Origin: Bradyrhizobium sp. LLZ17
Lineage (GTDB): Bacteria; Pseudomonadota; Alphaproteobacteria; Rhizobiales; Xanthobacteraceae
Length of the DNA stretch: 64,000 bases
Reading direction: 5' to 3'
Assembly (NCBI RefSeq): GCF_041200145.1
Contig: NZ_CP165734.1
Location: forward strand, 5,022,001 to 5,086,000
Part shown: in pieces, positions 1,845 through 60,554 of the stretch
Position numbering within the stretch: the first letter of the stretch is position 1
Layout: every line of letters begins with the position of its first letter
Made by a program: the position numbers and the translations under genes
Notes under the pieces: generated by a model
What the model was told of the DNA's origin: nothing
The model's database searches: none
Seen by the model: the letters and a program-made list of their open reading frames with translations, nothing else

Positions 1845-1974
1845 GCACCTCTCCCGCTTGCGGGAGAGGTCGCGCCGAAGGCGCGGGTGAAGGCTTTCTC
1901 CGCACGGGCGATCCCGGCGCGGAGATACCCTCTCCCCGACCATCTCCCGCAAGCAAGCGGGCGAAGGAGCGCAG
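1845..1974. repeat. palindromic intergenic repeat, CTCTCCC family (copy 1)
   Basis: Starts six bases after the katG stop. It holds the hairpin CCTCTCCCGC/GCGGGAGAGG, a second short palindrome (CGCGCC..GGCGCG), and a distal CTCTCCCC/CTCCCGC block. The same arrangement recurs after msrA at 60418-60554 and, more diverged, at 42465, 48328 and around 53833-54325. No reading frame is supported. It could serve as a terminator for katG but has no U-tract. Confidence 0.8.
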
Positions 1975-23106: not shown

Positions 23107-23136
23107 TGTCACTCTCCCCAACGGGGAGGGGTGAAG
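23107..23136. repeat. short CTCTCCC palindrome fragment
   Basis: CTCCCC/GGGGAG hairpin between the fur-like gene and the HAD gene, resembling one arm of the CTCTCCC repeats. Only a fragment is present. Confidence 0.45.
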
Positions 23137-37530: not shown

Positions 37531-37618
37531 GTCGTTGCGAGCGCAGCGAAGCAATCCAGAATCCCGCCGTGGAGACAGGCTGGATTGCTTCGCTTCGCCG
37601 CTTCGCTCGCAATGACGG
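37531..37618. repeat. palindromic repeat, GTCATTGCGA family (copy 2)
   Basis: GTCGTTGCGAGCGCAGCGAAGCAATCCAGA at one end, TGGATTGCTTCGCTTCG and GCTCGCAATGACGG at the other; the same family as 35080-35166. Lies upstream of the SulP gene and just past the purC stop. Confidence 0.85.
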
Positions 37619-37634
37619 ATTGAGCGGGGCCGCC

Positions 37635-42464: not shown

Positions 42465-42612
42465 CCTTCTCCCTTGTGGGAGAAGGTGGGCGAAGCGCCG
42501 GATGAGGGGTCTGTTTCCGCGATTTCTACTGCAACAGATGTGCTCGCCGAGAGAACCCCTCACCCGGCTCGCCGCTATGCGGCGAACCACCCTCTCCCAC
42601 AAGGGGCGAGGG
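42465..42612. repeat. inverted-arm repeat, CTCTCCC family (copy 2, short loop)
   Basis: Left arm CCTTCTCCCTTGTGGGAGAA..GGGCGAAGCGCCG..GATGAGGGG, a 46-base central loop (42510-42555), then the right arm CCCCTCACCC..CGCCGCTATGCGGCG..CCCTCTCCCACAAGGGGCG. The arms and their order match those flanking the DUF559 gene at 53833-54325, where the loop is replaced by the gene. No reading frame here. Confidence 0.85.
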
Positions 42613-48327: not shown

Positions 48328-48456
48328 GCGCTCCCTCCCTCGCCTGCGGGGGAGGTCTGGGGAGAGGCTGTCGCCGCGACGGGACAATCCCCAAGAGGAG
48401 AAAGCCCTCACCCGGCGCCTTTGGCGCGACCTCTCCCGCACGCGGGAGAGGTCGCA
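48328..48456. repeat. palindromic repeat, CTCTCCC family (copy 3)
   Basis: Between murA and the gyrB stop: CTCCCTCCC..GCGGGGGAGG, AATCCCCAAGAGGAGAAAGCCCTCACCC, GGCGCCTTTGGCGCGACC and CTCTCCCGCACGCGGGAGAG. Same family as 1845 and 60418. May end gyrB transcripts. Confidence 0.75.
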
Positions 48457-52672: not shown

Positions 52673-53808
52673 TTAGCGGCGGGCCGACACTTGTCCGCTC
52701 TCGACGTCAAACACCTCGCCAGCAGCGGCGATGTCGGCGAAGGCGGCCGGATCCGCGCCGGTCAGCCAGACCTGCGCGCCGAGCTTGCGCAGCTCGTCGA
52801 ACAGGGCCGTGCGGCGGTTCGGATCAAGATGGGCGACGACCTCGTCGAGCAGCAGCAGCGGCACGATGCCGGTCATCTCGGCGACCAGGGTCGCATGCGC
52901 CAGCACCAGCCCGATCAGCAGCGCCTTCTGCTCGCCGGTCGAGGCATCGCGCGCCGGCATGCCCTTCGGCGCGTAGATCACCTGCAGGTCGGTGAGATGC
53001 GGGCCGTCGGTGGTGCGGCCGGCGATGGCGTCGCGCGGGCGGTTGTCGCGCAGGATCTGGCGGTAGCGGTCCTCGACCGCGGTCGCGGTCTCCTCAAGCA
53101 GCGCGTTCTCCATCCAGCCGTCGAGCGCGATCTGCGCCGACGGAAACGCGGAGGCCTGCGCGCGCGCATTCAGCATGCCGGTCAATCGCGCCGCGGTCTG
53201 GCCGCGCGTTGCGGCGACGGCGACGGCGAGCTCCGCCGTCTCGCGCTCGATCGCATCACACCAATGGTCGTCGTAATTGCGCACCTCGAGCAGGCGGTTG
53301 CGCGAGCGCAAGGAGCGCTCGAGTGCGGAGATGCGGCTGGAATGCTCGCTGTCGATCGCAAGCACGAGGCGGTCGAAGAAGCGCCGCCGTTCCGACGCGC
53401 CGCCCATGAACAGCCCGTCCATCGCCGGCGTCAGCCAGACCATGCGGATATGGTCGCCGAAGCTCGTTGCCGAGTTCACCGGCTCGCGGTCGATGCGGCA
53501 GCGCCGGCTCACCGCATTGTCGGGTCGCGGGGGTCGATGCCGGTGCCGAGCGTGGCGAGCCCCAGCGCGCCCTCGACCTGGGCCGACACCGCCCAGGAGC
53601 CGTCACCCTGGTTGTCGGCGACGTCCTCCAGCGTTGCCCGCCGCAAGCCGCGTCCCGGCGACAGGAACGAGATCGCCTCGATGCAATTGGTCTTGCCCGC
53701 CCCGTTCGGCCCGACCAGCGCCACCATGTCAGCCGCCGTCTCGAGCCCCGCCGCCCGATAATTGCGAAAATGCGTCAGCGTCAGGCGATGAATGCGGGAG
53801 GGGGTCAT
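52673..53808 (-). pseudogene. recF: DNA replication and repair protein RecF, apparent -1 frameshift
   Basis: SMC-like ATPase that helps load RecA at gaps. The N-terminal part (MTPSRIHRLTLTHFRNYRAA, Walker A G33-PNGAGKT-40) runs to about 53509; the rest (VSRRCRIDREPVNSATSFGDHIRMVWLTPAMDGLFMG..) is in another frame. Adding one base at about 53520-53522 joins them as ..DPRDPDNAVSRRCRIDREPV, about 378 residues, the usual length. The C-terminal segments ASTGEQKALLIGLVLAHA (signature) and LLLDEVVAHLDPNRR (Walker B) are present. Likely a sequencing or assembly error. Confidence 0.93.
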
Positions 53809-53832: not shown

Positions 53833-53890
53833 CCCCTCTCCCCTTGTGGGAGAGGGTGGCGCCTCACGAAGTGAGGCGACGGGTGAGGGG
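53833..53890. repeat. CTCTCCC repeat, left arm flanking the DUF559 gene
   Basis: A 23-base block (CCCTCTCCCC..GGGAGAGGG), the small palindrome CGCCTCACGAAGTGAGGCG and GGGTGAGGGG, ending 4 bases past the DUF559 stop. The 23-base block reappears as its exact inverse at 54303-54325 and the GGGTGAGGGG as CCCCTCACCC at 54264-54273. Confidence 0.9.
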
Positions 53891-53894
53891 TATC

Positions 53895-54260
53895 TTACCG
53901 CCTGGCAAGCTTTGCAAGGATATCCTCCAATACAGAAGCGGGCTGCTGTAGCACGTCATTGTTCCAGTAACGCGCTATCGAGAAACCTTCGGCCGCGAGC
54001 ATAGCATCACGCGCTGTATCGCTTCGTGATTCTGCGTGCTGACTGCCGTCGATCTCGATCACAAGGCGCTTCTCGAAGCAGACGAAGTCGAGAATGTAAC
54101 TCTTGAACGGAACTTGTCGGCGAAGCTTGTAGGCGGACAACCGACGATCCCTGAGCAGGCGCCACATCGCGGCCTCCGCATCGGTCGGTTCGTGCCGCAT
54201 GTTCTTCGCGAACTGGCGGAGACGTTTTGGGACCGACCGATGGGATGGCTCCTGCGGCAC
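53895..54260 (-). CDS. DUF559 domain protein (PD-(D/E)xK nuclease-like)
   Basis: 121 residues from the GTG at 54260; a TTG at 54275 lies inside the flanking repeat. Core: PTDAEAAMWRLLRDRRLSAY, KLRRQVPFKSYILDFVCFEKRLVIEIDGSQH, ending FSIARYWNNDVLQQPASVLEDIL. The DFVC..LVIEIDGSQH pattern is the D-x(n)-E-x-D-G site seen in DUF559 and the Vsr-like nuclease superfamily. No Cys cluster typical of Vsr is seen. It is placed tightly between inverted repeat arms and interrupts the usual dnaN-recF adjacency. The biological role of DUF559 is not established. Confidence 0.85.
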   Translation of the reverse strand: MPQEPSHRSVPKRLRQFAKNMRHEPTDAEAAMWRLLRDRRLSAYKLRRQVPFKSYILDFVCFEKRLVIEIDGSQHAESRSDTARDAMLAAEGFSIARYWNNDVLQQPASVLEDILAKLARR

Positions 54261-54263
54261 TAA

Positions 54264-54325
54264 CCCCTCACCCAACCGAATGTGTATCCGCCAGCGGAGC
54301 AGCCCTCTCCCACAAGGGGAGAGGG
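54264..54325. repeat. CTCTCCC repeat, right arm flanking the DUF559 gene
   Basis: CCCCTCACCC, a short variable segment with TATCCGCCAGCGGAGCAG, then the exact inverse of the left arm's 23-base block. Together the arms make a large inverted repeat around the gene. Confidence 0.9.
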
Positions 54326-60417: not shown

Positions 60418-60554
60418 CACCTCTCCCGCTTGCGGGAGAGGTCGCATTGCATCGATAGATGCAATGCGGGTGAGGGCTTTCTCCTCTGGGAGAGTCTCTC
60501 TGCGGAAGCACCCTCTCCCCAACCCTCCCCCGCATGCGGGGGAGGGAGCGCACC
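60418..60554. repeat. palindromic repeat, CTCTCCC family (copy 5)
   Basis: CACCTCTCCCGCTTGCGGGAG, a perfect 10-bp hairpin GCATTGCATC/GATGCAATGC, GGGTGAGGGCTTTCTCC, then CACCCTCTCCCCAACCC and a second GC hairpin CCTCCCCCGCATGCGGG. Starts 19 bases after the msrA stop, mirroring the copy after katG. Confidence 0.85.

Follow-up and report, generated by a model that had tools for sequence, protein, structure and literature searches.

The closest described counterparts of the element treated here are the systems of repetitive extragenic palindromes (REPs), their doublets (REPINs) and the REP-associated tyrosine transposase (RAYT), also called REPtrons or TnpA-REP. They consist of short palindromic repeats that form inverted doublets with a short spacer; a gene lies between inverted copies, variants of the repeat match the enzyme, and many copies are without a gene. 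The enzyme is a HUH Y1 transposase, and the repeats carry a GTAG tag. Miniature inverted-repeat transposable elements (MITEs) and the insertion sequences from which they derive likewise pair a full, gene-bearing copy with copies that have inverted ends and no gene. We analyzed 64,000 nucleotides from Bradyrhizobium sp. LLZ17 (contig NZ_CP165734.1, positions 5,022,001 to 5,086,000), referred to as the window, in which a solo DUF559 nuclease gene lies between two inverted, REP-like arms. We think it probable that the locus represents a REPIN-like element in its full (autonomous) form, with a nuclease that recognizes and cuts its own arms and so drives their spread. An earlier note on this DNA had proposed a repeat-framed nuclease element with a gene-less form, and our results support that interpretation.

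A nuclease gene framed by inverted palindromic arms

The DUF559 gene of the window has recF and dnaN as its neighbors on either side, where the earlier note had placed it. The gene and its arms comprise the following features.

53895-54260, minus strand: solo DUF559 gene, 121 amino acids, GTG start, PD-(D/E)xK/Vsr-like nuclease fold
53834-53856, unstranded: left outer palindrome CCCTCTCCCCTTGTGGGAGAGGG
53858-53880, unstranded: left inner hairpin, with an 8-stem in the fold
53881-53890, plus strand: left G-rich tail GGGTGAGGGG, towards the gene
54264-54273, minus strand: right G-rich tail CCCCTCACCC (GGGTGAGGGG on the minus strand)
54274-54302, minus strand: right inner part, with a weak second hairpin in the fold
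54303-54325, unstranded: right outer palindrome, exact inverse of 53834-53856

Both arms follow one plan, with an outer palindrome, an inner part whose hairpin is strong on one side and weak on the other, and a tail running into the gene. The 23-base outer blocks are exact reverse complements, as had been claimed, and a longer 30-nt pair is 90% complementary. The tails had been placed 4 bases from both ends of the gene; this holds at the stop codon for GGGTGAGGGG, while CCCCTCACCC lies 3 bases from the start codon. With up to one mismatch, the tail word CCCCTCACCC occurs 10 times in the window (shuffles: mean 4.55, with 1 of 100 reaching 10). The tail word by itself is weak evidence; the arrangement is what beats chance. 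Folding of the four window arms as single-stranded DNA (the gene pair and the pair of a gene-less doublet at 42465) gave z = -5.7, -2.6, -4.0 and -4.7. Three of the four formed two clean hairpins and an unpaired tail, the exception being the right arm of the gene (54264-54325, minus strand), in which the second hairpin was only weak. No GTAG tag was found at the hairpin foot of the window arms, which read ...GGGTGAGGGG.

In a profile search the window protein matched PF04480 (E = 9.8e-37, 125.6 bits; curated cut-off 20.6). The sole other match, PF18741, was below its cut-off, and there was no HUH Y1 (RAYT) domain. Both the fold and the acidic core residues of a PD-(D/E)xK/Vsr-like nuclease are present, which bears out the likeness to PD-(D/E)xK nucleases proposed earlier. 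Among solved structures beyond the direct family, the homing endonuclease I-Bth0305I has the nearest fold. Phage-defense profiles of PADLOC matched weakly (11.5-14.1 bits) and over parts of long models only. The ratio of nonsynonymous to synonymous substitution rates (dN/dS) was 0.098, indicating purifying selection on DUF559. A genome may hold up to ten DUF559 matches, and we take YcjD to be a DUF559 protein.

The fold and the selection would also suit a host repair enzyme acting in Vsr-like mismatch repair, with the G-rich tail as its ribosome-binding site and the hairpins as terminators, all for expression only. The purine-rich tail does lie close to the start codon, and VsrA, a DUF559 protein of Caulobacter, is reported to cause DNA damage in the absence of a cytosine methylase (PMC12907096). 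We regard this explanation as very improbable. It predicts no inverted arms behind the gene, no gene-less doublets and no clade-specific arm variants, and genes of the solo type are patchy, occurring in 77 of 299 genomes at E < 1e-20.

The arms recur around solo DUF559 genes

We collected 242 DUF559 loci, 80 from named contigs and the rest from whole genomes, and scanned their flanks with a generic detector for a C/T-rich stem followed by a G-rich tail facing the gene. The first, narrower version found an arm upstream at 93 of 239 loci and downstream at 84 of 238 (background 22/4880). It was widened after misses, allowing for a domain offset, one mismatch, a longer reach and a pyrimidine run anywhere in the stem; the background and GIY-YIG controls were rerun, and the long-form DUF559 and Y1 controls were run with the wider version only. 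With this version, arms were found on at least one side of 198 of 236 loci and on both sides of 69 of 236 (upstream 178/240, downstream 94/238), with a median of 5 nt from the downstream tail to the stop codon. Background windows of 200 nt lying more than 500 nt away gave 43 of 4880, and upstream flanks with shuffled letters gave 6 of 1200. Chance as the source of the arms is rejected by the comparison of 198/236 with 43/4880, and the DUF559 genes of relatives do not mostly lack the arms, an outcome that the earlier note had named as telling against its reading.

The design around solo genes is a C/T-rich hairpin, often a second hairpin and a G-rich tail, inverted on the two flanks. It is restricted to these genes. 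Long proteins with a C-terminal DUF559 domain had an arm in 0/20 cases upstream and 0/20 downstream, their loci containing none at all, and small GIY-YIG genes (the family set) had C/T arms in 0/30 and 0/30. Within 500 nt, an arm was present at 232 of 241 solo DUF559 loci versus 1 of 29 Y1 transposase loci. At least 52 of the 78 readable named-contig loci precede recF by a motif test and are orthologues; in the whole-genome loci alone, an arm was found on at least one side of 133 of 158, in 68 of 75 genomes. The detector still misses arms visible by eye (for example L145 and L149), and the 242 loci include the long-form L002 as a miss.

Five loci of the rhizobial genus g53 (L122, L127, L136, L189 and L193) have a further arm type, ATCTCCCCCC..GGGGGAGAT, with long inner parts, which the detector mostly missed. 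One contig of B. japonicum SZCCT0153 carries the whole locus twice (L003, L004) with no difference in the displayed flanks; the probable cause is a large duplication or an assembly artefact rather than a fresh insertion.

On plasmids, within and beyond Pseudomonadota, we judged 12 of 44 matching records by eye. Inverted arms stood on both sides in 4 of 4 Deinococcus plasmid loci, in one Azospirillum locus and in one Sinorhizobium locus; a second Azospirillum locus had an arm upstream only. Two of three cyanobacterial loci had CCCCC..GGGGG hairpins with a GGGGGC tail, and the third, beside a BREX gene, had none. The E. coli DUF559 copy had just a different hairpin, upstream, and one Methylobacterium locus was ambiguous.

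Arm variants follow the protein clade

Arm variants differ between paralogues of one genome, and one variant returns around related proteins elsewhere. Variant V1 reads ACCCTCCCCTGGAGGGGGAGGGTCG, hairpin, GGGGTGGGGTGA, and variant V4 reads CGGGGAGAGGTCG, hairpin, CGGGTGAGGGG. Median arm similarity was 0.72 for proteins more than 60% identical in different genomes (107 pairs), 0.37 for paralogues in one genome (121 pairs) and 0.36 for proteins less than 40% identical (1763 pairs). The arm of the closest homologue was more alike than the arms of genome-mates in 98 of 125 cases. Arm variants thus track the DUF559 clade more than the genome. When arms were shuffled within genomes, 22 of 2000 shuffles reached the observed rho of 0.188 (shuffled 0.129 ± 0.026), a modest excess.

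The inner hairpins vary in sequence and keep their pairing. A stem of at least 5 was present in 131 of 183 arms versus 99 of 915 shuffles, and in 86 of 135 distinct arms.

Gene-less copies are dispersed and co-occur with the gene

The window itself contains a gene-less doublet and further arms.

42465-42612, unstranded: gene-less doublet (left arm 42465-42509, spacer 42510-42555, right arm 42556-42612)
60419-60546, unstranded: further doublet with arms on the plus and minus strands, by detector only
48405-48455, minus strand: further arm, by detector only
1847-1893, plus strand: further arm, by detector only
23112-23130, unstranded: lone palindrome found by the detector, possibly a collapsed doublet (compare the scars in relatives, below)

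At 42465-42612 two inverted arms enclose a spacer of 46 bases and no gene. The spacer is as first described. The arms had been called the same as those of the gene; the right arm is CTCGCCCC / GGGTGAGGGG, and the left is another variant, CTTCTCCC / GGATGAGGGG. The proposal that the two loci are the full and empty forms of one element therefore holds for the class of element and fails for this very copy.

Copies were counted in 299 genomes of the phylum with one pattern, GGGAGAGG-N(0-30)-GGTGAGGG, and a genome was scored as DUF559-positive at a best E < 1e-20. The pattern was present in 109 of 299 genomes, with 111 copies in genome G000, where the reversed control gave 0; elsewhere that control gave 1-4 matches per strand in a few genomes. 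At least 5 copies were found in 50 of 77 DUF559-positive genomes versus 14 of 222 others (odds ratio 27.5). Stratified by 16 families, with a threshold of at least 3 copies, the common odds ratio was 120 (p = 4e-14). Within the family, V1 was present in 25 of 61 genomes and V4 in 45 of 61, and the reversed control was 0 throughout. V1 copies are often paired as inward doublets, whose tails were 23-24 nt apart in the pairs read in G053. Six whole V1 units of the window's own genome, obtained from 6 of 9 fetched loci, were 0.78 identical to one another, compared with 0.48 for their 60-nt flanks and 0.52 for shuffled units.

Repeats are also found without DUF559 (at least 10 copies in 8 of 222 DUF559-negative genomes), which would fit arms that are older terminator-like or REP-like repeats moved by another enzyme, with DUF559 among them by chance. 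This is rather improbable, in that long-form DUF559 and GIY-YIG genes of the same genomes are without these arms (0/20 and 0/30), the variants follow the clade, and DUF559 is under purifying selection. As for the identity of such an enzyme, RAYT as the mover of the arms is not supported: the REP transposase domain Y1 occurs in just 20 of 61 family genomes, versus V4 repeats in 45 of 61, and an arm of this kind lies within 500 nt at only 1 of 29 Y1 loci.

The doublet at 42465 is present, absent or collapsed in relatives

We compared 50 loci corresponding to the 42465 site, 30 of them the best matches including the window and 20 hand-picked for unusual gaps, so that filled and empty counts are not frequencies; L307 and L310 were unreadable. 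The doublet is held in 35 of 50 loci (L273-L302, L317-L321), in at least three variants, and L291 lacks most of its left arm. The site is empty, with 8-29 nt, in 8 of 50 (L303-L306, L308, L309, L311, L322). In the five loci L312-L316 there is one collapsed palindrome, which at this one site supports the earlier suggestion that other CTCTCCC repeats could be deletion derivatives. Words such as TCTCTCC...GGAGAGA are common to the spacers of different doublet variants, and L273-L302 and L317-L331 include doublets with differing arm variants and similar central spacer words. This sharing suggests either exchange of arms inside a standing element or a common doublet ancestor.

The dnaN-recF spacer has alternative occupants

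Insertions recur at conserved gene borders, dnaN-recF among them; other sites are presumably pheT, metH and glyS. We tallied the dnaN-recF spacer in 70 Bradyrhizobium genomes, with classes assigned from profile or phmmer matches and short words. DUF559 occupied 34 spacers, all with CTCTCC words and two also with the GTCAT word, and the unrelated nuclease GIY-YIG occupied 16, where GTCAT-GCCGGGC words were always present and CTCTCC never was. The other spacers had GTCAT-type words only (11), CTCTCC only (2), both (1) or neither (6). Among the DUF559 copies, 4 seem broken or weak (L379, L421, L422, L423), and at least 3 of the GIY-YIG copies are broken or partial (L398, L414, L420). The tally rejects a fixed host gene at this border. 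The DUF559 gene is not present in all relatives without flanking repeats, the other outcome that the earlier note had named as adverse.

Recurrence at such borders is also what a homing-type selfish gene would show. Its nuclease would cut arm-less alleles at conserved intergenic sites, and recombinational repair would copy the element in. The arms would belong to the cassette or to its recognition site, and gene-less doublets would spread as a secondary effect. The GIY-YIG fold, that of the other occupant of the spacer, is likewise used by homing endonucleases, and the structural likeness to I-Bth0305I led us to move some weight to this explanation. We still hold it unlikely: homing by itself predicts neither the many dispersed gene-less doublets (111 in G000) nor the co-occurrence of repeat and gene.

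The GIY-YIG occupants (L387, L398-L403, L407, L409, L412-L414, L417-L420) have arms that read CGTCATTGCCGGGCTTGACCCGGCAATCCA or near variants, some with TGTCAT. By sequence these fit the CGTC-tagged REPs of a 2013 survey, which have a CGTC tag, AT first pairs and a CCA tail and are said to "apparently lack a dedicated transposase" (PMC3733652). Other small GIY-YIG genes (L243-L272, L474-L503) have flanking inverted repeats CATCCTGAGGAG...TCTCGAAGGATG or of the CATTCCCGC type. In the family set, 21 of 30 exceeded the 1% inverted-repeat threshold and 10 of 30 did so in direct orientation; L248 of this set is truncated, and its coordinates are doubtful. In a sample of 30 small GIY-YIG loci from across alphaproteobacteria, 19 had a flank inverted repeat above all 20 shuffles, CGTCAT or CGTCAC stood on both sides in 8 of 30, and C/T arms stood at the borders in 0/30 upstream and 2/30 downstream. 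CGTCAT was present in both flanks at 4 of 30 GIY-YIG versus 0 of 242 DUF559 loci. GIY-YIG may thus be the partner of the CGTC REPs.

Three side observations concern this spacer and the window. The spacers of L385 and L386 have a third type of occupant, with an inverted repeat GTAGGGTGGGCAA... / ...TTGCCCACCCTAC. A CGTC-like repeat, GTCGTTGCGAGCGCAGCGAAGCAATCCAG, not of the CTCTCC kind, lies at 37540-37620 in the window. At 53509-53512 recF is broken into two overlapping frames, likewise in L355 (same genome), either by a sequencing error or by a real frameshift; in the 8 relatives checked, recF is one frame of 381-428 codons between stops.

Proposed mechanism and its weak points

In the model we favor, two inverted REP-like arms and the solo DUF559 nuclease gene between them would make up an autonomous element. 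The nuclease would recognize its own arm variant (hairpins and G-rich tail) and cut in or beside the arm. Host repair or replication would then copy or move the doublet to other sites, whether it contains the gene or not. Doublets of two arms around a short spacer, lacking the gene, would in this way disperse as non-autonomous copies, and a scar of one palindrome would result if both palindromes were broken and the ends rejoined.

Several points weigh against this model. The detector found no arm on either flank of 38 of 236 loci and nothing upstream of 62 of 240, and arms in the opposite orientation were found at the same borders (53/240 upstream, 36/238 downstream). Flank matches were direct in 83 of 235 loci versus inverted in 121 of 235, in part because the outer hairpins are palindromes. 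The Deinococcus arms are mirrored, with the hairpin inside and the G-tail outside. The DUF559-negative genomes with at least 10 repeats, given above, have their converse in 14 of 77 DUF559-positive genomes without any repeat of the one tested pattern, and G000 has 11 V1 copies, yet its sole solo DUF559 gene carries another arm variant. Linkage of arm and gene, or shared ancestry, accounts for part of the matching of arms and proteins. No target-site duplication could be defined at the 42465 site because filled and empty sites differ too much in their flanks for the borders to be placed. Finally, from recognition on we infer the steps, namely binding and cutting of the arms by the protein, the spread driven by this cutting, and the route of repair.

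The presence of DUF559 nucleases in their own versions of the repeat across many bacteria suggests that a kind of element distributing short repeats through genomes has been overlooked. REPs are common in bacteria. The 2013 survey, which classified many of them, assigns an enzyme to the GTAG families and leaves the CGTC families without one (PMC3733652). A nuclease whose clades match the variants of its own repeat offers a testable pair of enzyme and substrate; the pairing would account for a widespread repeat and provide a concrete role for DUF559, whose function is still unknown. Should a simple nuclease that lacks strand-transfer chemistry spread repeats, it would do so by a break and host repair, unlike in RAYT models. 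The side finding would likewise serve GIY-YIG and the CGTC repeats. In the literature searched, which left out preprints and most subscription papers, we found no link of DUF559 or GIY-YIG genes to palindromic repeats.

Comparison with known systems

The DUF559 protein shares its nuclease fold with Vsr and with EDxHD homing endonucleases such as I-Bth0305I; its constant partner here is the repeat arm. As with MITEs and their parent insertion sequences, a full copy of the element is accompanied by copies that keep the inverted ends and have no gene; unlike them, the element has no DDE or tyrosine transposase, and each of its ends is itself a palindrome. The CGTC-tagged REPs resemble its arms as palindromic repeats of alphaproteobacteria, mostly inverted dimers, for which the 2013 survey reports no dedicated transposase (PMC3733652). 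They are another sequence family and stand here around GIY-YIG genes, not DUF559.

The likeness to REPIN/RAYT systems is closest, and both inverted REP-like flanks and dispersed gene-less doublets were found. The enzyme here is a PD-(D/E)xK/Vsr-like nuclease, and the arms have a G-rich tail and often two hairpins each. By analogy, the DUF559 element would work like REPIN/RAYT; we do not file it there because the HUH transposase and the GTAG tag are both missing. Tentatively, and as a possibility we take seriously, DUF559 and GIY-YIG, as two of several unrelated small nucleases, could form a general, undescribed class of nuclease-REPtrons, each with its own superfamily of palindromic repeats, which it would spread without a transposase: GIY-YIG with the CGTC REPs, and DUF559 with the CTCTCC/GGTGAGG repeats of Pseudomonadota and Deinococcus, with a variant in cyanobacteria.
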